The notes under the pieces are model-generated. The model had not been told where the DNA came from and searched no databases. It was given only the letters and a program-made list of their open reading frames with translations. A program made the position numbers and the translations under genes. Positions 4,861 to 24,160 of a DNA stretch of 37,337 nt are shown here, piece after piece. Source of the DNA: Ignavibacteria bacterium (GTDB taxonomy: Bacteria > Bacteroidota > Ignavibacteria > Ignavibacteriales > SURF-24); NCBI GenBank assembly GCA_025612375.1, contig JAAXKN010000041.1:1-37337 (forward strand), written 5' to 3'. Every line of letters starts with the position of its first letter. Position 1 is the first letter of the stretch.

Positions 4861-6921
4861 TTACCAGATTTTCACCCTTACATTTTCAGGCCTGTACATC
4901 GGATCGCCCGGTTTAACCTTAAATGCTTCCAGGAATTCAGGGATGTTGCTTAAAGGTCCGATAACCCTGTACTGCCCCGGTGAGTGGGGATCTGTTTTAA
5001 TGCGGTTCATTAAAGACTCCCTGCGTATTGAATTTTTCCAGACCTGTGCATAGGAAAGGAAGAAGCGCTGGGTGGGTGTAAAGCCGCCAATTGACTTACC
5101 GATCTTAAATTCACTGGTTTTCTTGAAAGCAGTAAAGGCCACATTAAGTCCGCCAAGGTCCGCAATATTTTCGCCCTGCGTGAGGGCGCCGTTAATGTGC
5201 ATGGAATCTACAGGGAAATAGCTATTGAATTGGTCTACGATAAGCTTTGCCCTGTCGTTAAATTTAGTCCCGTCTTCTTTTGTCCACCATTCCTTAATAT
5301 TGCCCTGGGCGTCAAACTGGCGACCTTCGTCATCAAAGCCGTGAGTTACTTCGTGTCCTATTACAACACCCATAGCGCCGTAGTTTACAGCGTCATCGGC
5401 ATTGACGTCGTAGAACGGGGGCTGGAGGATTGCAGCCGGAAATACGATCTCATTCATAAGAGGGTTATAGTAGGCGTTGACGGTCTGAGGCGTCATTTCC
5501 CACTCGGTTCTATCGACCGGTTTACCGATCTTTGCAAGCTGCCTTTGCAGTTCAAATTGTGAGGCGCGGATGACATTTTTAAGGTAAGAATCCCTCTTTA
5601 TTTCGAGATTTGAATAATCCTTCCATTTATCAGGGTATCCGATCTTAACGCTGAATGCGGCAAGTTTTTTCAATGCCTGCTCTTTTGTCTCACTGCTCAT
5701 CCAGTCCACATTCTTAATTCTTTCGCCCATGGCATCCAGGAGTGTGCGGACGATCTTTGTTGCGCGCTCTTTTGCCTTTGGTGAGAAGGTTTCCTTAACA
5801 TAAAGCTGTCCTAAAGCCTCGCCAAAATAGCCGTCAATTGCCAGCATTACTCTTTTCCACCTTGGCTGCATAGCCTTCAGGCCGTTTAAGAATTTGCCGT
5901 CAAAGTCGAAGCTTTCTTCAACAAAACTGTTATTGAGGTATCCTGCGGCATGGCTTATAAGGTGCCATTTGAGGTAAGTTTTCCAGTCGTTTACAGAATG
6001 TTCCTTTACAATCCGGCTAAGGCCTTTGAAGAATTCAGGCTGCGCCACGTTCATGTCTTCAGGCTTATTCCAGCCCAGTGTCTTAAAATAAAGGCTCCAG
6101 TTAATTTCGGGGGACATATCGATGAGTCCTGTAACTGAAACTTTATTGTATGTTTTATTCGGGTCTCTCATTTCGACCCTGTCCATTGAAACCCTGGCAA
6201 GCTCAGTTTCAATATTCATTACAGCTTCGGCTGCCTTTTTGGCATCTTCCTGGCTGTAGCCTAAAAGGGAGAACATCTTCTGAATATGTTCCGGGTATTT
6301 AGCCCTTATTTCCTTAGAGCGGCTGTCGTCCTTGAGGTAATAGTCGCGGTCGGGGAGCCCCAGTCCCGACTGTCCCAGCTGTGCGATAACCATGCTGCTG
6401 TTCTTGGCGTCAGCGCCGGCATAGAAATCGAACAGGGCAGAAACGCCGTAGGAGTGGAGTTTTGCAATTTCCTCATTGAGGCCTTTGAGGTCACTTACGG
6501 CATCAATTTCCCTCAGGTAAGGCTGAAGGGCTTCAGTTCCCTCTTTTTCAATTTTTACGGTATCCATACCTGCGCTGTAGAAGTCCCCTATTTTCTGTTT
6601 CAGGGATCCCTGAGGAGCCTTTTTATCGGCCGCAGAGGATTCGAGGATTTTTTTCAAAATCTTAAAGTTACTTTCGGCCAGCACTTCAAAGCTGCCCCAG
6701 CGGCCGTAGGCATCGGGTATGGGGTTATTTTTTATCCATTCACCCACTGCATACTGGTAAAAATCCACTGCCGGGCTGGTCTTTTTATCTATTGTTGAAA
6801 GATCCAGGCCCTTCGAGCTGGAAGGTTTACTGCCGCTTTCCGCGTGTACGTTTGGTGCACTCATTATCAGTCCTAAAATTAAAAGAGTACCAAGATTCAG
6901 TATTTTTGTTAAATTCCGCAC
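4861..6921 (-). CDS. M13-family (neprilysin/PepO-like) zinc endopeptidase, exported
   Basis: This is a full-length M13 metallopeptidase of 686 residues. The zinc site is HEVTH (about residues 523-527) with the third ligand Glu in ENIADLGG (about 584). The substrate-binding NAYYNP block lies about 35 residues before the zinc motif, and the C-terminus ends with the usual PMYRPENVRVKIW. The N-terminal PAVDFYQYAVGEWIKNNPIP block is also typical. The start is set at GTG (6919-6921) because AAGGAG lies nine bases upstream and the protein then opens with a clean signal peptide cleaved after VHA. A longer frame would need a TTG at 6960 with no ribosome site. It probably degrades peptides in the periplasm or on the surface, and it is monocistronic. 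Confidence 0.92.
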   Translation of the reverse strand: MRNLTKILNLGTLLILGLIMSAPNVHAESGSKPSSSKGLDLSTIDKKTSPAVDFYQYAVGEWIKNNPIPDAYGRWGSFEVLAESNFKILKKILESSAADKKAPQGSLKQKIGDFYSAGMDTVKIEKEGTEALQPYLREIDAVSDLKGLNEEIAKLHSYGVSALFDFYAGADAKNSSMVIAQLGQSGLGLPDRDYYLKDDSRSKEIRAKYPEHIQKMFSLLGYSQEDAKKAAEAVMNIETELARVSMDRVEMRDPNKTYNKVSVTGLIDMSPEINWSLYFKTLGWNKPEDMNVAQPEFFKGLSRIVKEHSVNDWKTYLKWHLISHAAGYLNNSFVEESFDFDGKFLNGLKAMQPRWKRVMLAIDGYFGEALGQLYVKETFSPKAKERATKIVRTLLDAMGERIKNVDWMSSETKEQALKKLAAFSVKIGYPDKWKDYSNLEIKRDSYLKNVIRASQFELQRQLAKIGKPVDRTEWEMTPQTVNAYYNPLMNEIVFPAAILQPPFYDVNADDAVNYGAMGVVIGHEVTHGFDDEGRQFDAQGNIKEWWTKEDGTKFNDRAKLIVDQFNSYFPVDSMHINGALTQGENIADLGGLNVAFTAFKKTSEFKIGKSIGGFTPTQRFFLSYAQVWKNSIRRESLMNRIKTDPHSPGQYRVIGPLSNIPEFLEAFKVKPGDPMYRPENVRVKIW

Positions 6922-7129
6922 CCTTATTGTCTCCTTATGGTTATTAATAGTTCCGGGCAAATATTCTTAGCGGAACAAATTTAATCAATTAGTATTAAAA
7001 GATATACGATCATGTATCCTAAAGACTACAACCGGGGGCAAATAGTTCCCGAAAAGCCCCAAAATCCGCAAAAATTTTCTGGCATAATCCTTGGCTTTTC
7101 TTCTTCCTGTAAACCAAAGGAGCAGTTCG

Positions 7130-7755: not shown

Positions 7756-8646
7756 CTACATTCTTATTGTAAAGACGGTTTCAACGAAGAGGTCCTTGTA
7801 CTCCAGAATGAATTTCTCAAGGTTTTCCATTGATCCCAGCTGAAGAGTGTCAATTATGGCCGGGTCAAGCTCCATATCCTTATCCCAGTAAACGTTTGCG
7901 ATCTGGAGCTTTTGTGTCATATAGTCAGCCAGGTGCACAACGGATGCAAGGACGCTTCTTGAGCCTATTTCGCCGGGAGAATGGTGGTGATTAAGTGTTT
8001 CGCACAGGACAACGGGCAGGTTCCACTTTTCAGCCAGGAATTTTCCCATATCCTGGTGTGTCAGGCCGAGCGTATCGAGCTCTGCTGTGTGAAATGACTC
8101 CCCTTCAGTAGAAACCCTTCGGAATATCTCTTCAAACTGAGCGTGCATGTACTTGTGCATAAGCTGTATTCCAAGCTCATGCAGCATTCCGGCAACAAAG
8201 GCGTCGCTTCCAAGATCCATATGCCCGAGGTTCTGTGAAATTCCCTTGGCGGCAGAACCTACCACCATAGAATGGAGCCAGAACTCCTCGTGGTTAAAAC
8301 ACTTGTCTGTGGAGGATCTAATGGATTCAGCCAGTGAAAGAGCTGAGACGATATCCTGAATTTCCTTATAACCGAGCACAATAATTGCGAATTCCAGTGA
8401 GGTAACTTTTCTCTGAAGCCCGTAGAGTGGAGAATTTGCCACTGAGAGTATCTTGGCTGTCAGCCCCTGGTCCTTACCTATAAGCCTTGCCAGGCCGCTG
8501 GTTGTTGGCGCAGGCGACTGCAGGAACTTTGTAACTTCAAACATCATTTTAGGAATGAGCGGCAGGTTTTTAATATTGCCCAGGAGCTTTTCAGTCTGAA
8601 TTCTTTTGGATGCCCTGTCAGCGGTTTGAAAATTTATATTATCCAT
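7756..8646 (-). CDS. HDOD-domain signalling protein
   Basis: This 296-residue cytoplasmic protein is almost entirely one HDOD domain (residues about 20-220). Visible signatures are LPLIPKMMFEVTKFLQSP, LARLIGKDQGLTAKILSVANSPLYG, the LEFAIIVLGYKEIQDIV helix and AFVAGMLHELG. HDOD proteins are HD-domain relatives that usually lack hydrolase activity and act as scaffolds in stress, motility or c-di-GMP signalling. Here the canonical HD pair reads HE (AGMLHELG), consistent with a non-catalytic role. No receiver, EAL or GGDEF domain is attached, so its input must come from a partner. It is monocistronic with a good upstream promoter candidate. Confidence 0.85.
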   Translation of the reverse strand: MDNINFQTADRASKRIQTEKLLGNIKNLPLIPKMMFEVTKFLQSPAPTTSGLARLIGKDQGLTAKILSVANSPLYGLQRKVTSLEFAIIVLGYKEIQDIVSALSLAESIRSSTDKCFNHEEFWLHSMVVGSAAKGISQNLGHMDLGSDAFVAGMLHELGIQLMHKYMHAQFEEIFRRVSTEGESFHTAELDTLGLTHQDMGKFLAEKWNLPVVLCETLNHHHSPGEIGSRSVLASVVHLADYMTQKLQIANVYWDKDMELDPAIIDTLQLGSMENLEKFILEYKDLFVETVFTIRM

Positions 8647-8898: not shown

Positions 8899-10245
8899 AT
8901 GATAAAGAGGCTGGTCATAATTGCGGTGCTTTTTATCTCCTGTTCGGCATTTTTACAGGCACAGGAAGTAAAAATAGATTTTACGGAGTATGACCTTGAT
9001 AACGGCCTGCACGTAATACTGCACCAGGATAACACGACACCGATAGTTGCAATAACCGTCACATATCACGTCGGTTCAAAAAATGAGAAGCCCGACCGCA
9101 CGGGCTTTGCGCATTTTTTTGAGCATCTGATGTTTGAGGGCTCAGATAACATAAAGCGGGGCGAATACTTCCAGTACATTCAGAACGCCGGCGGGGACGC
9201 AAACGCATACACGTCATTTGACCAGACGGTTTATCACGAGGTGCTCCCTTCAAACCAGATTGAGCTGGGCCTGTGGCTGGAATCGGAACGGATGCTGCAC
9301 CTTAAGATTGACAGCACGGGAGTTGAAACGCAAAGAGGCGTTGTTAAGGAGGAAAGAAAAGAGCGCCTTGAAAACCGTCCCTACGGATCCATTATGGAAC
9401 AGACATTTGCCCATGCATATAAGGTTCACCCTTACAAATGGGTGCCAATAGGATCGGTTCAGTATATCGATCAGGCGACTCTGGCCGAATTCAGGGATTT
9501 TTATAAAACGTTCTATGTGCCGAACAATGCAGTCTTGTCTATTGCAGGGGACTTCAGCATTGATAAAATGAAAGACCTGGTAAAGAAATATTTTGCAGAG
9601 ATACCAAAAGGGACAAAACCCATTTACCGCCCCAGTGCAGTGGAACCGGAGCAGAAAAAAGAGGCGGCTGATACGGTTTATGACAACATACAGCTCCCGG
9701 CAGTTGTGAAGGCCTTCCACATTCCGGCACAGGGAACAGACGACTACTATGCAATAGACATGCTTACAACGCTCCTTTCCTCGGGACAGAGTTCACGTTT
9801 CTATAAAGAGCTTGTGGACAAAGAGCAGAAGGCGCTTTATACCGGCTCATTCCCCTTTTCACTTGAGGACCCGGGATTGTTCTTAGTTTATTCCATTTCA
9901 AATATGAATGTAAACGTTAAGGACCTGGACAGCTCGATTGACAGGGAAATAACGAAGGTCCAGAATGAGCTGATAAGTGAGCATGAGTTCCAGAAGCTTA
10001 GGAATCAGGTTGAAGACGATTTTGTAAAGAGTAAGAACACGGACCTTGGAATTGCAACGAGCCTTGCAGACTATTACCTGTTCTACAAAGGGAACACAGA
10101 CCTCATAAATACAGAACTCGAGCGCTATATGAAAGTAACACGTGAAGACATAAAAAGAGTGGCAGATAAGTACCTGACGAAAAACAATGAGACGCTGCTT
10201 TATTACCTGCCGAAGCCGTTAGAATCAAATGGGGAGGGAAAATAA
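8899..10245 (+). CDS. M16-family zinc peptidase, catalytic subunit
   Basis: This 448-residue exported protein has a signal peptide (about residues 1-22, cleaved near LQA-QE) and two insulinase-type half domains. The inverted zinc motif HFFEH (residues 72-76) and the downstream Glu in VVKEERKE (about 151-152) give the complete HxxEH...E site of M16. The context GFAHFFEHLMFEGS is canonical for pitrilysin/processing-peptidase relatives. The next gene, one base downstream, encodes a non-catalytic M16 protein, so the two probably form a heterodimeric peptidase of the bacterial M16B type that degrades peptides in a closed chamber. A Cys in the signal peptide (FISC) does not form a good lipobox. Confidence 0.92.
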   Translation: MIKRLVIIAVLFISCSAFLQAQEVKIDFTEYDLDNGLHVILHQDNTTPIVAITVTYHVGSKNEKPDRTGFAHFFEHLMFEGSDNIKRGEYFQYIQNAGGDANAYTSFDQTVYHEVLPSNQIELGLWLESERMLHLKIDSTGVETQRGVVKEERKERLENRPYGSIMEQTFAHAYKVHPYKWVPIGSVQYIDQATLAEFRDFYKTFYVPNNAVLSIAGDFSIDKMKDLVKKYFAEIPKGTKPIYRPSAVEPEQKKEAADTVYDNIQLPAVVKAFHIPAQGTDDYYAIDMLTTLLSSGQSSRFYKELVDKEQKALYTGSFPFSLEDPGLFLVYSISNMNVNVKDLDSSIDREITKVQNELISEHEFQKLRNQVEDDFVKSKNTDLGIATSLADYYLFYKGNTDLINTELERYMKVTREDIKRVADKYLTKNNETLLYYLPKPLESNGEGK

Positions 10246-10246
10246 A

Positions 10247-12322
10247 ATGAAAAAAGCATCAGTTGTATTCCTTTTACTTTTCTTAACATCGTCTCCCCTT
10301 TTTCCGCAGCTTGACAGGCGCACATCGCCCCCTCCGGGACCCGCGCCTGAGATAAAGCTTTCGGATTATGAGAGCTTTGAGCTTAAAAACGGGCTTAAGG
10401 TTTTTGTCGTGGAAAACCACAAGCTTCCCGTTGTATCCTTCTCTCTTGTAGTTGACCGCGATCCTATACTTGAAGGCGACAGCGCAGGATACGTTGCCAT
10501 GGCAGGGGACCTATTAAGAACAGGGACGAAAACAAAGACTAAAGACGAGATAGACGAGGCGATAGATTTCATCGGGGCCTCACTTTCAACTTCGTCCACC
10601 GGTGTTTCAGCCTCAACGCTTACAAGCCACATGAACCAGCTCCTGGATATTATGTCGGACATAGTTATAAATCCCTTGTTTAAGCAGGAGGAGCTGGATA
10701 AAATAAAAAAACAGGCGCTTTCCGAACTTGCCTCATCAAAGGATGAGCCGGAGACAATTGCAGGGCGCATTGAACAGAAGCTCTATTACGGGAAAGATCA
10801 CCCTTATTCAGAATTTGAGACTGAAGAATCCGTAGGAAAAGTAACGCTTCAGATGTGCAGGAATTATTATAATTCTTTCTTTAAGCCTAACATAGCCTAT
10901 CTTGCAGTTGTGGGTGATGTGACAAAAAAAGAAATTGAGCCCGTTATAGAAAAATACTTCGGCCAGTGGCAGAAAGGTGAAGTAAAACATTTTACCTATC
11001 CGGTGCCGAAAGCTCCTTCAAATAACGTTGTTGCAGTTTCAGACCGCCCGAACTCCGTGCAGTCAACAATAAGAATAGGATACCCAATCGATCTGAAAGT
11101 AGGCGGCCCCGATGCCATAAAGGCGGGGCTGGCAAATACAATTTTAGGCGGAGGTGAGTTCAGGCTTTTTAAGAACCTGAGGGAGGCTCATGCATATACT
11201 TACGGCGCCTATTCCAGGCTCTCAAGTGACAAGCTGGCCGGAAATTTCACGGCCTATACCGAAGTAAAAAGCGCCGTAACAGACAGCGCCGTTTACGAAA
11301 TACTAAATGAAATGAGAAAAATGAGGCAGGAAAAGCCCGATGAAAAAGAGCTTCAGACAGCAAAGAACTATTTAAGCGGTAATTTTGCAATTGCGCTTGA
11401 AAAGCCCTCAACTATTGCCAGCTTTGCAATTAATATTGCAAAATACAACCTCCCCAGGGATTACTATAAAAACTATCTCAAGAATGTGCAGGCGGTCTCA
11501 GCACAGGATGTATTCGATATGTCGAATAAGTACATACACCCTGAAAATGCATATATCATTGCAGTGGGTAACGCCCAGGAGATTGCAGGCAAGCTGAAAA
11601 GGTTCAGCCCTTCGGGTAAGGTTACTTCATACGACGTTTACGCACAGGAGCTGGATACAACGGCTAAAAAGCTTCCTGAAGGAGTTTCTGCCCGCACGGT
11701 GCTGGATAACTACATAGCACAGATAGGGGGAAAAGATAATCTCCTTAAGGTACAGGACAGAACGACTGAAATGACCGGCAAAGTCCAGGGCGTTGAAGTC
11801 AACATTACAATTTACCAGAAGCAGCCCGATAAGCTCCTTCAGGAGATAAAGGCCGGCAGCATGACGCAGTCAATTATTTTTGATGGGAAAAAAGGTTTTA
11901 GCGTAACTCCTGCCGGGAAAAAAGAGATCACGGGACAAAACCTGGACGACTTAAGGCAGGAAGCAACGCTTAACCTTCTATTAAATCCCGGGAAATACGG
12001 CATTACTTCAAAGCTCTCAGGAATTGAAAAAGTTGAGGGGAAAGACGCCTACAGGATTGAGCTCCAGGCAGGCACGGGGAAAAAGTGGACCGAATATTAT
12101 GACGTCACCTCAGGACTTAAGCTAAGGCAGATAAAACCAATTCAGGCACCCATGGGACAGGCGACGCAGACCGTAGATTTCAGCGACTACAGGGACGTTG
12201 AAGGGGTAAAGTACCCATTCCGCCTTAAGCAGACCCTGGGAAGCCAGCAGATGGAAATGCAGGTAACTTCATTAAAAGTAAATAATAACTTAAAAGATAG
12301 TATATTTGAAGTGCAGAAATAA
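10247..12322 (+). CDS. Non-catalytic M16-family protein with extra C-terminal domain
   Basis: This is a 691-residue exported protein. Residues about 35-450 are two M16 half domains, but the zinc motif is lost: at the place of H, E and H in HxxEH there are Ala, Gly and Asp (GYVAMAGD, about 81-88). The second half keeps the Arg/Tyr region (NLREAHAYTYGAYS, R about 312) found in substrate-binding M16 subunits. Residues about 470-691 are an added beta-rich domain resembling LolA/LppX-like lipid-binding folds; that fold call is inference from the strand pattern and the DYRDVEGVKYPFRLKQ segment. The ATG at 10247 is chosen over 10229 because GGGAGG lies upstream and a signal peptide begins there. It is one base after the catalytic partner, hence an operon. 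Confidence 0.88.
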   Translation: MKKASVVFLLLFLTSSPLFPQLDRRTSPPPGPAPEIKLSDYESFELKNGLKVFVVENHKLPVVSFSLVVDRDPILEGDSAGYVAMAGDLLRTGTKTKTKDEIDEAIDFIGASLSTSSTGVSASTLTSHMNQLLDIMSDIVINPLFKQEELDKIKKQALSELASSKDEPETIAGRIEQKLYYGKDHPYSEFETEESVGKVTLQMCRNYYNSFFKPNIAYLAVVGDVTKKEIEPVIEKYFGQWQKGEVKHFTYPVPKAPSNNVVAVSDRPNSVQSTIRIGYPIDLKVGGPDAIKAGLANTILGGGEFRLFKNLREAHAYTYGAYSRLSSDKLAGNFTAYTEVKSAVTDSAVYEILNEMRKMRQEKPDEKELQTAKNYLSGNFAIALEKPSTIASFAINIAKYNLPRDYYKNYLKNVQAVSAQDVFDMSNKYIHPENAYIIAVGNAQEIAGKLKRFSPSGKVTSYDVYAQELDTTAKKLPEGVSARTVLDNYIAQIGGKDNLLKVQDRTTEMTGKVQGVEVNITIYQKQPDKLLQEIKAGSMTQSIIFDGKKGFSVTPAGKKEITGQNLDDLRQEATLNLLLNPGKYGITSKLSGIEKVEGKDAYRIELQAGTGKKWTEYYDVTSGLKLRQIKPIQAPMGQATQTVDFSDYRDVEGVKYPFRLKQTLGSQQMEMQVTSLKVNNNLKDSIFEVQK

Positions 12323-12349: not shown

Positions 12350-12964
12350 ATGGGAAACAGGAAATATTCGGTTATAGTTTTTGATCTCGGCAATGTGCTC
12401 ATTCCTTTCGATTACAGTATAATGATGAAAAGGCTCGATTTAGTTGAGGAAGGTTTAGGCAAAAAGTTCATGGATCATTATAAGGCAAATTATCATATTC
12501 ACAGGCAGTTTGAACGCGGGAAACTGACAAACGATGAGTTTATAGAAATAATGCTCAAAAGCTGCAACGGCAGCCTTGACCGCGAGACCTTCTGCAGGTA
12601 TTATTCGGAAATTTTCAGGCTGAACAATGACGTTGTCGCTCTTATTCCTGAATTAAAGAAGAAATACAAGGTGGTTCTTCTTTCAAACACAAACGACATA
12701 CACAGGCAGTACGGATATAAACAATACGAGTTCCTGAAGCATTTTGACAAGCTTATCTTGTCGCACGAGGTTAAAGCTGTAAAGCCGGAGCCTGAGATAT
12801 ATAAGGCGGTTGAAGCTTTTACGCAGGTACCCGCGGAGGAACATATTTTTGTTGACGATGTATTAGAATATGTGGAGGGTGCTAAGAAAATGGGCTGGGA
12901 TGCGGTTCAGTTTACTTCTTACGGCCAGCTTGTTGAGGATTTTAAGGCCAGGGGAATTCTTTAA
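12350..12964 (+). CDS. HAD-superfamily phosphatase (YihX-like)
   Basis: This 204-residue cytoplasmic hydrolase shows all four HAD motifs. Motif I is VFDLGNVL, where the second acidic residue is replaced by Asn as in YihX-type subfamily IA members. Motif II is VVLLSNTND, motif III is the Lys in KAVKPEPEIY, and motif IV is IFVDDVLE. A helical cap lies between motifs I and II. YihX-like enzymes act on sugar phosphates, but the substrate here is not predictable. It follows the M16 pair after 27 bases with no terminator between, so it may be cotranscribed. No clear ribosome site precedes the ATG. Confidence 0.87.
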   Translation: MGNRKYSVIVFDLGNVLIPFDYSIMMKRLDLVEEGLGKKFMDHYKANYHIHRQFERGKLTNDEFIEIMLKSCNGSLDRETFCRYYSEIFRLNNDVVALIPELKKKYKVVLLSNTNDIHRQYGYKQYEFLKHFDKLILSHEVKAVKPEPEIYKAVEAFTQVPAEEHIFVDDVLEYVEGAKKMGWDAVQFTSYGQLVEDFKARGIL

Positions 12965-18589: not shown

Positions 18590-21500
18590 TCATTTCATGA
18601 GAAGGAGTTTCTTCACATCCATAAATCTCTTTCCGCTTTCTTCCAGAGTCTCAATCCTGTAGAGATAAACACCCGCTGAAATGTCCTGAGCGTTGAATGT
18701 CACGGTGTTCATACCTGAATGCCTGAACTCATTTACCAGAACCGCGACTTCCTTTCCAAGCGAGTTGAATATTGTAAGTTTTACGCGAGAGTCACTTTTC
18801 AGGTAATACTTAATTACTGTACTCGGATTAAATGGATTTGGATAGTTCTGGAAGAGCTTGTAGTCTGAAGGAATAAGCAAGCCGGCTTCTACGGCCGAGA
18901 GTGTATTTGTTATTGTGAATTCATTACTGAAGCTTACAACTGAATCTGCTGTAAATGCGCTTACTTTGTATGTGTAGGTTATATTTACCTTTATTGTTGA
19001 ATCCACAAATACCGTATTGTTACGGTCCACTTTCCCCAGCAGGTCATAAATGCCCGTAGAATTCAGGTCGCCTTCTTTCCTGAAAATAAAGAATCCGCTT
19101 TCATTATCAGAGCTGTCGCTCCAGAAGAGCCTTACCTTTCCGTATTCAGCTTTAGCTATGAGATTGCAGGGAGCCTTAACGGGCTGCTTCTCTGTCTTAA
19201 AGGCGGCTGCATCAGAGAACTTGCCGAATCCAGCACAGTTACCGGCTCTTACTCTCCAGTAGTAGCACGTGTTGTAGCCCAAGGGTCCCACCTGTTTGCA
19301 GGCGGCTGTTACGGTTTCATCTATAACAAGTATCTTGAAACATCTATCCGTGGAGACCTGAACGTTATAGTTTGTTACATTCCGGACTGCCTGCCATTTC
19401 AATACAGGATTTATTGCTGCAGGCCCGCACTGATCGACAGGGCTAATGAGAACAGGGGCAATAGGAACGGAATTAAACTCAACAGTTACATTCCTGCCTG
19501 AAGTCATCTTTATCATCGCAGGGTTACTGCAAGTGCCTGCAAGATCCCCGCCCCAGGAGACAAAGACATTTCCTTCTGATGGGACAGCCTGAAGCTTTAC
19601 AACTTCATTGATATCGAACTGTCCCTCATACGGAAGCGTCTTCAGCTCTTCATTTACCCTTACCTGTCCTGTGCCTAAACCTTTTGAGATGATTGTGAGC
19701 TTATACTGAATGATACTGAATGAGGCAGTCAGCGACATATTTGAGTCAACTTTAATACTAAGAGGATTATCCTTTCCCTTAATACTTCCGCTCCAGCCGT
19801 CAAAGACGCTTCCCTGGAAAGGAATTACGTTTACAGTAACTTCAGTACCGGTGATATATACTTTTTCGAATGGAAGCTGGACTGCTGCGCCGTTTACCAT
19901 AACACGCCCTGAACCGGAGCCGGTTGGATGGATTTTAAGTGTAAACTGATTAAGCATAAACTCAGCTTTCACATTTTTATCCTGATCCATAGTAAAGTTT
20001 ACAGGATTGCCTGTTCCCGCGGCAGCTCCGCTCCAGCCCGTGAAGGCACTCTTTGCACCCGGTACTGCTTCGAGCCTGACTACGCTTCCGTGAGGGCATG
20101 AAACTGAGAATGGGAGAACTCTCAGTGTGTCGTTTACCTTAATCTCACCGGATCCTGTCCCGGTACTTTCAAGAACCATCAGGCTGCGCTTTAGAAGTGT
20201 AAAGCCGGCGCTTACACTGACATCGGAGGTCATGGTTATATTAACAGGGTTTACACTGCCTGTAAGGCCGCCTCCCCAACCAGTAAAACAGCTTGTGGCA
20301 GCATCCGGAACAGCCTCAAGCTTAACTACAGATCCATGGCTGAAGGATGCTGTGTAAGGAAGGGTTCTTACTGTGTCGTTCACCTTAACCAGACCCGATC
20401 CGGTACCGGTGCTCTTTAAGACCATTAGGCTCCTGCCAAGAAGAGTAAATCCGGCCCTCAGAGTCTTATCTGAATTCATCGTTATACTGACTGGATTAGC
20501 TGCGCCTGAAAGGTCGCCCTCCCATCCCGTAAAGCTGCTGGTGGATGCATCCGCTGAGGCCTCAAGTTTAACTATTGTTCCATGCGGATATGAAGCCGAG
20601 TATGGCAGGGTTCTTAAGGTATCATTTACCTTAACCTGGCCTGAACCTGTACCCGTGCTTTCTATTACTACAAGGCTGCGCTTGAGGAGTGTGAATGCAG
20701 CATTGACAGTCTTGTTTGAGTTCATAGTAAGGTTTACAGGATTATTCGTACCAGAGAGGTCCCCGCCCCAGCCTGTAAAGCTGCTTGTTGCGGCTTCAGG
20801 CACTGCCTCAAGCTTAACCACAGTCCCGTGAGAATATGAAGCTGAGTATGGAAGTGTCCTGACGGTATCGTTTACTTTAATTTCTCCCGAACCTGTCCCT
20901 GTATTCTCGAGAACCATAAGACTTCTGTTAATGAGGCTGAACTCAACTGTCGCATTCATATTGCCATTCATTTTGATGCTGCCCGGATTAGCAGTACCCG
21001 AAAGGGCTCCTCCCCAGACAGTGAAGCTGCTGGTTGATGCCTCAGGCACAGCCTCCAGACTTACGACCACATTATGGGCAAAAGATCCTTCATACGGCAA
21101 AGTGTAAGTAGTACCGTTAACTTTGACCTGGCCGGAGCCCGTCCCCGTTTTTGAAATCGAAAGTGTCCTCTGAAGGAGAGTAAATTCAGCACTTACGCTC
21201 TTATCCCCGTCCATAGTAATAGCTGCCGGATTTGTTGTCCCTGTCAGGGCTCCATTCCATCCCGTAAAGCTGCTTGAAGATGGGTCTGCCACAGCCTGCA
21301 GTTTTACTACTTTGCCGTGAGGGTAAAAATGCTGGTAAGGAAGAGTTCTTACCGTATCATCTACTCTTATTTCTCCAGTGCCGGTTCCTGTATTCTCAAT
21401 TACCATGAGCTTGCGGTTAAGTAATGTAAATTCCGCCCTTAAGCTCTTGTCCTGATCCATAGTAATATTCACAGGGTTAGTTGTGCCTGTAATGCTTCCG

Positions 21501-24160
21501 CTCCAGGCTGTAAAGCTGCTTGTAGATCCGTCTGCAACAGCTTCAAGCTTTACTACGCTCCCGTGCGGATATGACGCTGAGTAAGGCAGTATGCGTAATG
21601 TATCATTTACTTTGACCGCTCCTGATCCGGTACCGGTATTCTCAAGGACCATGAGGCTTCTGCTTAGAAGAGTGAAGCCCGTTGTCACATTCTTATCACT
21701 ATTCATAGCGATACTGGCAGTATTGCCGGTTCCGGAGAGGGCGCCTCCCCATGCTGCAAAGCTGCTGGTTGCTGCATCCGGAGCGGCTTCCAGATTTACA
21801 ACCGTGTTATGTGCAAATGATCCCGTGTATGGCAGGTCGTAAAGGGTGCCGTTCACCTTCACCCGTCCAGCGCCTGTTCCCGTCTTTGTAATTGTAAGTG
21901 TCCTCTGAAGAAGTGTGAAAGCTGCGCTAAGGCTCTTGTCCCCGTCCATAGTAAGAGTTACGGGATTTGTTGTACCCGTAATAGCTCCGCTCCATCCTGT
22001 AAAGCTGCTGGATAACGGGTCTGCCACTGCCTGCAGTTTTACCACAGTGCCATGAGAGAAATAATGCTCGTAAGGAAGTACCCTAACGGTATCATTCACC
22101 TTCACCTCTCCTGATCCGCCACCAGTATTCTCAAGCACCATAAGCTGACGGCTAAGAAGTGAAAACTCAGCTGTTACGCTCTTGCTGCCGTTCATAGTGA
22201 TGGTTGTTGGGTTTGTTGAACCTGAGAGACCCCCTCCCCAGGCAGTAAAGCTGCTTGTTGAGGCATCAGGCGCCGCCTCCAGGTTTACTACTGTATTATG
22301 CGCAAAAGATCCTGTATATGGCAGAGAGTAAAGAGAACCATTTACCTTAACCTGCCCTGACCCTGCACCCAGCTTAGTGATTGCAAGTGTCCTTTGAAGG
22401 AGGGTGAATTCAGCACCTACGCTCTTATCTCCATCCATAGTAATAGCTGCCGGATTTGTCGTCCCCGACAGGGCTCCATTCCATCCAGTAAAGCTGCTGG
22501 ATGATGGGTCTGCAACAGCCTCCAGCTTGACTACTTTACCGTGGGAGTAAAAATGCTGGTAAGGAAGTGTTCTTACTGTGTCATCTACTTTTATTGCTCC
22601 CGATCCGGTACCCGTATTTTCAAGGACCATTAACTGACGGTTAAGAAGAGTAAACTCTGCTCTAAGGCTCTTATCACCATCCATTGTAATATTTAGCGGA
22701 TTGGCAGTTCCTGTTGAGGCCCCGCTCCATCCGGTAAAGCTGCTTGTAGCGGCATCAGGCACCGCCTCCAGGTTCACTACCGTATTATGGGCAAAAGATC
22801 CTTCATAGGGCAGGGTGTGGAGAGTGCCGTTTACCTTTACCTGTCCCGAGCCTGTGCCAGTTTTTGAAATAGAAAGTGTTCTGGGTATGAGAGTAAAGTC
22901 GGCCGAGAGAGCCTTGTCATTATCCATGGTAATGTTAATAGAACTGGAAGTACTCGTAACAGCTCCGCTCCAGCCTGTAAAACTAGTCGATGAGGCTTCA
23001 GGTGCGGCTTGAACCGTAATAGTCTGACCGGCATTGAATTTCCCTGAATAAGGAACAGTCACTTTTACACCCATGACATATATATATCCGGTGCCTGTAC
23101 CTGTCTGTTGAATTGTTAGTGTCCTTTGAAGGAGTGTAAACTCTGCCGATGTTGTTTTATCCCCGTTCATGGTTACCGATGTTGAGGCTGGTGAGCCTGC
23201 AAGGTCACCTGACCACCCGGTTAAGCTGCTTGCTGCACCATCAGGCACTGCCTCTATGTTTACTGATGTCCCATGGGGATATGACTGTACGAAGGGAAAG
23301 GTTGAGACCCCGGTCCCGTTTACCTTCACAGTTCCTGAACCCGTGCCCGTGCTCTGGCTGATCGTGAGTGTTCTCTGTAGAAGGTCAATTCCTGCTTTAA
23401 TATTTTTATTACTACTCAATGTAATGCTGGTTGGATTTGTGGTACCTGATAAGTCGCCGCTCCAGCCGGTAAAACTGCTGGTAGCAGCATCAGGGACAGC
23501 TTCCAGATTCAGAACTGTGTTGATTACAAAAGACCCTGTGTAAGGAAGGTCATAGATAGTGCTGTTCACCTTTACCTGTCCTGCACCGGTTCCAAGTTTT
23601 GTTATTGTGATGCTCCTTAGTGGAGTAAATTCAGCTGTTATATTTTTATTGCCATTCATCGTGATGGTTGTGGGACTAGTTGTGCCCGAGAGGTCACCTC
23701 CCCAGCCGGTAAAGGTATTTGTTCCGGAAGCAGGAAACGCCTCAAGAGTTACGACTGTATTATGATAAAAAGTTCCCGTGTAGGGCAGGGAGAAAAGAGT
23801 ACTATTTACTTTCACCTGCCCCGATTCCGTTCCTGCCTTAGTAATCTTAAGCGTCCTAGAAATAAGAGTAAATGAAGCCATTACACTCTTATTTCCACTC
23901 AGTTTGAATGTGATTGGATTGGTGCTGCCTGAGAGATCGCCAAACCAGCCTGCAAAAGTGCTGGCCCCCGGTGTCGGAACAGCTTGTAAGGTTACGTTTA
24001 CATTGTTATCAAATGTTCCGGAATAAGGAAGGTCATAAGTAATGTCGTTTACAATCACCTGACCTGTTCCGTTTCCTGTCTTTGTGATGGTAAGTGTAGC
24101 TGCCTGAATGGTAATCTGGGCGAGGAATAATAGCACCAGAAAAAGGAGTAACTTCTTCAT
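18590..24160 (-). CDS. Giant secreted protein: 19 InlB-type repeats, two FnIII-like domains, type IX sorting domain
   Basis: This 1856-residue surface or secreted protein has a signal peptide (residues 1-20, MKKLLLFL..., cleaved near IQA). I count 19 tandem repeats of about 81-82 residues (about 21-1563) of the divergent InlB B-repeat type. Each carries a TGxGxxxVN start, an LPY turn, an FTGWSGxxxGTxNP core and an MDGDKSxxAEFTLL end. Two fibronectin-III-like domains follow (about 1564-1760), the first with several Cys. The C-terminal 95 residues form a type IX (Por) secretion sorting domain with LFQNYPNPFNPST and AGVYLYRIE. Such proteins are moved by T9SS and usually anchored on the surface, often as adhesins or enzymes; no enzymatic domain is seen here. 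Secretion genes are not in the window. Confidence 0.9.
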   Translation of the reverse strand: MKKLLLFLVLLFLAQITIQAATLTITKTGNGTGQVIVNDITYDLPYSGTFDNNVNVTLQAVPTPGASTFAGWFGDLSGSTNPITFKLSGNKSVMASFTLISRTLKITKAGTESGQVKVNSTLFSLPYTGTFYHNTVVTLEAFPASGTNTFTGWGGDLSGTTSPTTITMNGNKNITAEFTPLRSITITKLGTGAGQVKVNSTIYDLPYTGSFVINTVLNLEAVPDAATSSFTGWSGDLSGTTNPTSITLSSNKNIKAGIDLLQRTLTISQSTGTGSGTVKVNGTGVSTFPFVQSYPHGTSVNIEAVPDGAASSLTGWSGDLAGSPASTSVTMNGDKTTSAEFTLLQRTLTIQQTGTGTGYIYVMGVKVTVPYSGKFNAGQTITVQAAPEASSTSFTGWSGAVTSTSSSINITMDNDKALSADFTLIPRTLSISKTGTGSGQVKVNGTLHTLPYEGSFAHNTVVNLEAVPDAATSSFTGWSGASTGTANPLNITMDGDKSLRAEFTLLNRQLMVLENTGTGSGAIKVDDTVRTLPYQHFYSHGKVVKLEAVADPSSSSFTGWNGALSGTTNPAAITMDGDKSVGAEFTLLQRTLAITKLGAGSGQVKVNGSLYSLPYTGSFAHNTVVNLEAAPDASTSSFTAWGGGLSGSTNPTTITMNGSKSVTAEFSLLSRQLMVLENTGGGSGEVKVNDTVRVLPYEHYFSHGTVVKLQAVADPLSSSFTGWSGAITGTTNPVTLTMDGDKSLSAAFTLLQRTLTITKTGTGAGRVKVNGTLYDLPYTGSFAHNTVVNLEAAPDAATSSFAAWGGALSGTGNTASIAMNSDKNVTTGFTLLSRSLMVLENTGTGSGAVKVNDTLRILPYSASYPHGSVVKLEAVADGSTSSFTAWSGSITGTTNPVNITMDQDKSLRAEFTLLNRKLMVIENTGTGTGEIRVDDTVRTLPYQHFYPHGKVVKLQAVADPSSSSFTGWNGALTGTTNPAAITMDGDKSVSAEFTLLQRTLSISKTGTGSGQVKVNGTTYTLPYEGSFAHNVVVSLEAVPEASTSSFTVWGGALSGTANPGSIKMNGNMNATVEFSLINRSLMVLENTGTGSGEIKVNDTVRTLPYSASYSHGTVVKLEAVPEAATSSFTGWGGDLSGTNNPVNLTMNSNKTVNAAFTLLKRSLVVIESTGTGSGQVKVNDTLRTLPYSASYPHGTIVKLEASADASTSSFTGWEGDLSGAANPVSITMNSDKTLRAGFTLLGRSLMVLKSTGTGSGLVKVNDTVRTLPYTASFSHGSVVKLEAVPDAATSCFTGWGGGLTGSVNPVNITMTSDVSVSAGFTLLKRSLMVLESTGTGSGEIKVNDTLRVLPFSVSCPHGSVVRLEAVPGAKSAFTGWSGAAAGTGNPVNFTMDQDKNVKAEFMLNQFTLKIHPTGSGSGRVMVNGAAVQLPFEKVYITGTEVTVNVIPFQGSVFDGWSGSIKGKDNPLSIKVDSNMSLTASFSIIQYKLTIISKGLGTGQVRVNEELKTLPYEGQFDINEVVKLQAVPSEGNVFVSWGGDLAGTCSNPAMIKMTSGRNVTVEFNSVPIAPVLISPVDQCGPAAINPVLKWQAVRNVTNYNVQVSTDRCFKILVIDETVTAACKQVGPLGYNTCYYWRVRAGNCAGFGKFSDAAAFKTEKQPVKAPCNLIAKAEYGKVRLFWSDSSDNESGFFIFRKEGDLNSTGIYDLLGKVDRNNTVFVDSTIKVNITYTYKVSAFTADSVVSFSNEFTITNTLSAVEAGLLIPSDYKLFQNYPNPFNPSTVIKYYLKSDSRVKLTIFNSLGKEVAVLVNEFRHSGMNTVTFNAQDISAGVYLYRIETLEESGKRFMDVKKLLLMK
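19471..24100 (-). repeat. Coding tandem repeats, 19 units of about 243/246 bp, two subtypes
   Basis: Units fall into two types. Type A (81 residues) begins RTLTITKTGTGSG with GSFAHNTVVNLEA. Type B (82 residues) begins RSLMVLENTGTGSG with SHGxVVKLEAVAD. In order from the N-terminus, units 1-3 are A-like and 4-5 are divergent. Units 6-11 alternate A-B-A-B-A-B, 12 is B, 13 is A, 14-17 are B and 18-19 are diverged end units. Units 7 and 12 are almost identical, pointing to internal segmental duplication. The array is a likely site of recombination and assembly error. Confidence 0.85.

Follow-up and report, generated by a model that had tools for sequence, protein, structure and literature searches.

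An active and dead M16B peptidase gene pair with a predicted LolA-fold extension in Ignavibacteriales and other Bacteroidota

Within the 37,337 nucleotide stretch of DNA analyzed here (the window; contig JAAXKN010000041.1 of the Ignavibacteria bacterium assembly GCA_025612375.1, order Ignavibacteriales, phylum Bacteroidota), two neighboring genes were identified whose products, judged by their motifs, are an active M16B peptidase subunit and a dead one that supply complementary halves of a single catalytic site; the dead subunit is extended at its C-terminus by a domain predicted to possess the LolA fold. This arrangement recurs in many Bacteroidota, and part of the order has the extension by itself at this locus. 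Known members of the LolA fold include lipoprotein carriers. In the function considered most likely for the LolA-fold cup, with a probability of roughly 0.4, an envelope ligand that is acylated or hydrophobic would be bound and linked to the peptidase chamber, whereby ligand binding would be a separable primary function. Literature searches revealed no paper on the M16/LolA-fold fusion, the records listed being PMC6016940, two unrelated ones and four on M16 in Flavobacterium; the architecture may stand in domain databases.

The two M16B subunits and their pairing

The features of the gene pair are the following (window coordinates).

8899..10245, + strand: gene 1, active M16B peptidase subunit (448 amino acids; leader peptide judged by eye; Pfam Peptidase_M16 and M16_C)
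9112..9126, + strand: HFFEH zinc and catalytic motif of gene 1, residues 72-76 (in 32/32 aligned orthologues)
9349..9354, + strand: Glu151-Glu152 of gene 1, both invariant in 32/32 active subunits (region of the distal M16 zinc ligand)
10247..12322, + strand: gene 2, dead M16B subunit fused to the predicted LolA-fold domain (691 amino acids)
10496..10510, + strand: lost metal site of gene 2, with Ala84, Gly87 and Asp88 replacing His, Glu and His of HFFEH (by alignment)
11180..11203, + strand: Arg312...Tyr319 of gene 2, substrate-side Arg/Tyr pair (invariant in 31/31 aligned dead subunits)
11657..12322, + strand: predicted LolA-fold extension, residues 471-691 of gene 2 (221 amino acids; AlphaFold, Foldseek and VIA-align)

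The start of gene 2 was set at the ATG at 10247 and not at 10229 as given by the open reading frame tool; this ATG is located one base past the gene 1 stop and directly before a hydrophobic leader, and the 691-residue numbering fits it. Both chains matched PF00675 and PF05193 above the Pfam cut-off, and every feature of the M16B family open to testing was found; the anatomy of the pair is firm. The closest PDB relatives of gene 1 are 5euf, 4nnz and 3amj_C; for the dead part of gene 2, the structure search gave 3amj_B, the inactive Sphingomonas chain, as the top match (Foldseek E 2.3e-32, template modelling score to the target 0.90). The original prediction, made from the sequence alone, had held that the first protein keeps HFFEH, that the second shows Ala, Gly and Asp in place of His, Glu and His and that it keeps the substrate-side Arg/Tyr region, and the alignments bear this out at residue 72 of gene 1, exactly for the three replaced positions, and for Arg312 and Tyr319. 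In an alignment of 32 orthologues of gene 1 and 31 of gene 2, HxxEH is present in all 32 active subunits and in none of the 31 dead ones, whereas the substrate-side Arg and Tyr are present in 31/31 dead and 0/32 active subunits; the part of this residue pair in completing the M16 site is described in the accessible part of a review (PMC12731061). By these complementary motifs, neither protein could build a complete catalytic site as a homodimer. HxxEH was likewise found in none of the 64 fused genes identified within and outside the order, one of which (L068) lacks this region. The aligned rows derive from sets of the order's fused loci from which split or cut genes and second near-copies were omitted, namely L018, L066 and L067 in set A1, L018, L066, L067 and L068 in set A2 and L018, L036 and L068 in set A3. 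Thirty further full-length orthologues from the order were aligned with gene 2 and share 43-81% identity with it. That the dead half is a decayed duplicate was rejected, considering the Arg/Tyr pair invariant in 31 rows and a ratio of nonsynonymous to synonymous substitutions (dN/dS) of 0.05-0.07 in three pairs. At one locus (L018:3562-4892 (-), also inside L144 of genome G033) the active gene is split over two frames, with an open frame kept for the fused dead subunit; this reflects either early decay or an assembly error.

The claim that the two proteins form a dead/active pair finds support beyond the motifs. The active gene is located directly upstream (at most 400 bases) in 63 of the 64 fused genes, the exception being L068, which is cut by the contig end. 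Furthermore, all 24 genomes of the order without the fusion were also found to be without a gene 1 orthologue, as no listed match exceeded 42% identity there, versus at least 59% in 12/12 fused genomes including that of the window. This joint presence or absence of both M16 genes provides good indirect evidence for their working together. By homology, the products of gene 1 and gene 2 would form a periplasmic heterodimeric peptidasome, a secreted protease of clam-shell shape, like that of SPH2681/SPH2682 from Sphingomonas sp. A1 (PDB 3amj), which the dead part matches best in both fold and sequence and which, like TTHA1264/TTHA1265, likewise combines an active HXXEH subunit with an inactive partner. 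SPH2681/SPH2682 differ in that they are devoid of a C-terminal LolA-fold domain; the 50 listed matches of the whole gene 2 chain are M16-type chains of 398-496 residues.

It was also hinted originally that the protease may be tethered to the membrane. For gene 2 this is not supported: leaders were judged by eye and lipoboxes scored with a loose pattern, and a lipobox-like leader was found in 0/34 of the order's fused genes with an N-terminus and in 3/29 elsewhere, so that a lipid anchor on gene 2 was rejected. The leader of gene 1 (window 8899-8965) carries FISC, after which come further hydrophobic residues and an AQ junction, and it fits the loose pattern. The match is shared with L009 of the same genus, and in the window a second possible cleavage site comes after it. 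Among the frames of the active gene, the loose pattern was matched in 3/35 cases in the order, that of the window included, and in 3/29 elsewhere.

The C-terminal extension

The beta-rich addition of about 220 residues, which had been proposed to be LolA-like, was found to comprise 221 residues, for which 13 strands and N-terminal helices following the M16 part are predicted. The AlphaFold model, derived from an alignment of 47 extension domains, shows a mean predicted local distance difference test score (pLDDT) of 93.2 and a predicted template modelling score (pTM) of 0.88. Fold searches with this predicted model did not yield an unrelated fold but LolA-type structures, among them 3bk5 from V. 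parahaemolyticus (VIA-align Z 17.3 over 199 residues, 4.0 Å), the DUF1329 protein 4z48 (Z 16.5), LolA3 from P. gingivalis (9tp6; Z 16.2 over 197 residues, Foldseek E 8.6e-10), NE2245 (3buu; Z 15.3) and P. gingivalis LolB (Z 13.7), as well as the LolB entry 1iwm (Z 10.7) and the LolA entry 1iwl (Z 10.6). The extension is thus predicted to possess the LolA fold, its half-barrel sheet and N-terminal helices being superimposable on LolA-type structures for most of the domain's length. LolA3, 3bk5 and 3buu share this fold (Z 15.3-17.3), but they comprise 224-240 residues, have no peptidase part and show 13-15% identity to the extension over the aligned part. According to the accessible part of the respective report (PMC13103446), LolA3 resembles the extension also in being without the LolA arginine and the LolB leucine.

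At the sequence level, similarity to the LolA group is weak: the Pfam family PF17131 (LolA_like) was matched by 14 of the 47 extension domains at E up to 0.01, and the extension profile yielded no significant match among the PDB sequences (best E 0.16; Borrelia LolA 0.76). A Lys-x-Pro-Asn/Asp-Lys motif (K55 in 45/47, P57 in 46/47 and K59 in 44/47 rows) residing in the predicted beta2-beta3 loop, as located from the strands of the model, is strongly conserved. Strand-alternation hydropathy does not discriminate a lipid cavity from ordinary packing. Within the source genome the extension profile has one match. Its other M16 genes (G000:C1, C6, C13, C33) form mostly adjacent pairs, one being of double length, and are without the LolA-fold domain. 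The genome also encodes a PF17131 LolA-like protein of its own (G000:C43:31152-31703, L142), apart from the canonical LolA (G000:C5, L141); it aligns to approximately the final 100 positions of that profile, and the gene directly ahead of it is permease-like (FtsX/LolE type by eye).

Fused and stand-alone forms

Among 59 genomes of the order, i.e., the window's own and 58 relatives, 35 carry the fusion, 15 carry a stand-alone extension and 9 possess distant relatives only or nothing. Matches to the extension profile (E up to 0.001) were found in 137/197 genomes of the class and in 163/296 genomes of the phylum, two overlapping draws whose counts include stand-alone paralogues and genomes of the order. 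Forty further loci were chosen by hand from the profile matches, 38 outside the order and two inside (L136 and L137, neither of them fused); 29 of these are dead-M16 fusions, each with an intact HFFEH gene directly upstream (29/29), whereby the choice favored high scores and long frames, so that 29/40 is not a frequency and the outgroups lean towards the fused state. In the class search, the nine best matches outside the order all reside in long frames (694-774 amino acids), and of the nine, eight were retrieved and identified as fusions (8/8). The phylum search, however, has a stand-alone protein (G411) as its best match from beyond the class. With the same architecture in 29/40 further loci and in 30 orthologues of the order, a chance or local fusion was rejected.

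The 15 stand-alone proteins possess N-termini that appear leader-like by eye, and they occupy the same locus, as may be followed from the genes at its edges.

12350..12964, + strand: HAD-family phosphatase-like gene, 27 bases past gene 2 (kept as neighbor where the M16 pair is missing)
7756..8646, - strand: divergent HDOD gene at the other edge of the locus (shared with L050 and L051 of the same family)

The HAD gene was found just downstream of the stand-alone extension in 14 of 15 cases, 12 of them adjacent (one partial at a contig end) and two with one gene between, L061 being the only stand-alone locus without it. It was found in 14 of the 35 fused loci of the order, most of which were viewed with only 1.5 kb of flank. 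On the far side, the HDOD gene is common to the window, L050 and L051, and in another family a DUF5686 gene is common to the fused L145 and the stand-alone L059, L055, L058 and L052.

In a careful extension tree, the stand-alone state needs seven changes, of which the starred branches force at least five, and 5-95% of 200 bootstraps gave 6-7. From the trees the contig-cut L039 was omitted; L001, L038 and L040 duplicate other loci of the set. The simpler reading is repeated loss, since the best-scoring matches beyond the order are fused, but neither the root nor loss versus gain is firm. Of two stand-alone pairs, the one that is unsaturated shows a dN/dS of 0.096 (dS, i.e., synonymous substitutions per site, 1.16); in three fused pairs the dN/dS of the extension is 0.03-0.07. 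Considering the stand-alone forms at the same locus, the changes of state and the low dN/dS, the extension appears to be selected for also without this protease, hence the LolA-fold module appears to be useful without this peptidase. Service to this chamber as the sole purpose of the extension was rejected as the whole story, since stand-alone forms occur without the M16 pair at the same locus. This also bears on the originally hinted role in substrate selection: a pure selector role is disfavored, as the extension stands alone where the orthologous M16 pair is absent. Genomes without the fusion do keep paralogous M16 genes, with which the free extension might still work.

The LolA-fold domain is also joined to other proteins. 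It was identified at the C-terminus of an M1 peptidase with intact HEFGH in two Bacteroidota families (L112:2412-5027 (-) and L115:2250-4922 (-)), and both rows cluster on the quick tree; as this metallopeptidase is unrelated to the first, the union suggests that the LolA-fold domain and envelope proteolysis are partners more generally. Next to these, a sortilin-like protein carries the domain N-terminally (L134:4180-7500 (+)) and a reaction-centre cytochrome c-like protein C-terminally (L130:2427-4313 (-)).

Possible functions of the LolA-fold cup

The mechanism favored here, at the probability given above and as the reading that best fits the facts together, assumes that the cup would bind an acylated or otherwise hydrophobic ligand, i.e., a lipoprotein, a lipopeptide or a lipid, and would couple the bound ligand to the M16 chamber. 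Such coupling could consist in the presentation of the attached peptide for degradation or in the reporting of ligand binding to the protease. M16 chambers are described as restricting substrate size and favoring unfolded cleavable regions (PMC12731061, accessible part). Since the cup is repeatedly encoded at this locus with the protease missing, its primary, separable function would be ligand binding, with the peptidase being an add-on to that pathway and not the reverse.

A number of observations weigh against this reading. The fold matches of the extension also include VioE and ependymin-related proteins, and LolA-fold proteins have other roles. Against the PF17131 cut-off of 30 bits, the window protein scores 15.4 and its extension domain 18.2 bits, and the model of the whole gene 2 chain reaches a pTM of 0.63. 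The position of the LolA arginine, residue 56 between Lys55 and Pro57, is occupied by Arg in 0/47 rows. A LolB-type beta3-beta4 loop is likewise missing from the model, where a two-residue turn (67-68) is found that is too short for it; Gly67 is present in 38/47 rows, Val68 in 18, and Leu at 67 or 68 in none of the 47. With neither the LolA arginine nor the LolB loop, canonical Lol carriage by the extension is unlikely. As to the separate history of the cup, a larger quick tree (87 rows) needs five changes and forces only three for 14 stand-alone rows, and neither tree fixes the direction of change, the 11 outgroup rows of the careful tree not falling on one side of a branch. Finally, the 15 genomes which keep the extension without the M16 pair imply that it need not serve this chamber.

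Other LolA-fold modules, RseB/MucB and GerS, are reported to control an enzyme or a cleavage event (accessible parts of PMC7400510 and PMC8496864), but these are separate proteins acting in trans, while the extension is joined to the dead M16 subunit. GerS, whose fold is LolA-like, activates the amidase CwlD allosterically (PMC8496864, accessible part), and correspondingly the extension might stabilize or activate the heterodimer with no lipid bound, which would be in line with its missing LolA and LolB hallmarks. This is held to be rather unlikely, given that 15 genomes lacking both orthologous M16 genes retain stand-alone forms and that the other M16 genes of the window's genome manage without such a domain.

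A further possibility, and an unlikely one, is that off-pathway lipid, sensed by the domain, causes the M16 chamber to open or close, in the way MucB and RseB control the cleavage of MucA and RseA. For MucB, the cavity is reported to sense lipid A and thereby to free MucA for AlgW (PMC7400510, accessible part). RseB and MucB are indeed among the fold matches, but at Z 7.1-7.3 they are far below the LolA-type carriers. In addition, no anti-sigma factor was identified by Pfam among the eight genes in and around the pair, and the stand-alone form has no adjoining M16 gene to gate.

That the domain is instead an unrecognized Lol-type lipoprotein or lipid carrier, with the M16 parts as a dispensable passenger in the same pathway, would be consistent with stand-alone copies bearing leader-like N-termini at one locus, purifying selection in one pair and the alternative pathway proposed for the viable F. 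johnsoniae strain without all five known LolA/LolB proteins (PMC11885536, accessible part), but is quite improbable in view of a widespread fusion whose partner keeps HFFEH in 29/29 pairs of the chosen loci, unlike a mere passenger, and of the missing LolA arginine and LolB loop.

The fusion could even be a widespread lipoprotein quality-control machine of Bacteroidota, in which an unlisted Lol-fold carrier would catch mis-sorted lipoproteins or acylated fragments and feed the attached peptidase. The stand-alone derivatives would then be carriers that have shed proofreading and contribute to the LolA/LolB-independent sorting implied by the F. johnsoniae quintuple mutant. This is a long shot. 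In that mutant, according to the accessible part of the report, five LolA/LolB proteins were deleted, the cells were viable, a surface lipoprotein reporter was correctly placed and an alternative route was proposed (PMC11885536). The fusion family constitutes a further Lol-fold module to be considered for this alternative sorting, if F. johnsoniae possesses it. Its attachment to a protease and its score below the Pfam cut-off make such a module easy to miss; the term M16 has no occurrence in the main text of the F. johnsoniae paper (PMC11885536) or of the P. gingivalis LolB paper (PMC13103446). Moreover, the natural series of fused, stand-alone and absent forms at one locus renders the division of labor between cup and protease directly testable.

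In the wider surroundings, an M13 peptidase is encoded close to the M16 pair (window 4861-6960 (-)), and some of the related loci encode an M49 peptidase downstream of the HAD gene, so that the neighborhood is rich in peptidases. Farther away, at window 18590-24160 (-), a protein of 1856 residues is encoded, with 16 InlB-type repeat matches and a sorting tail for Por secretion (type IX).

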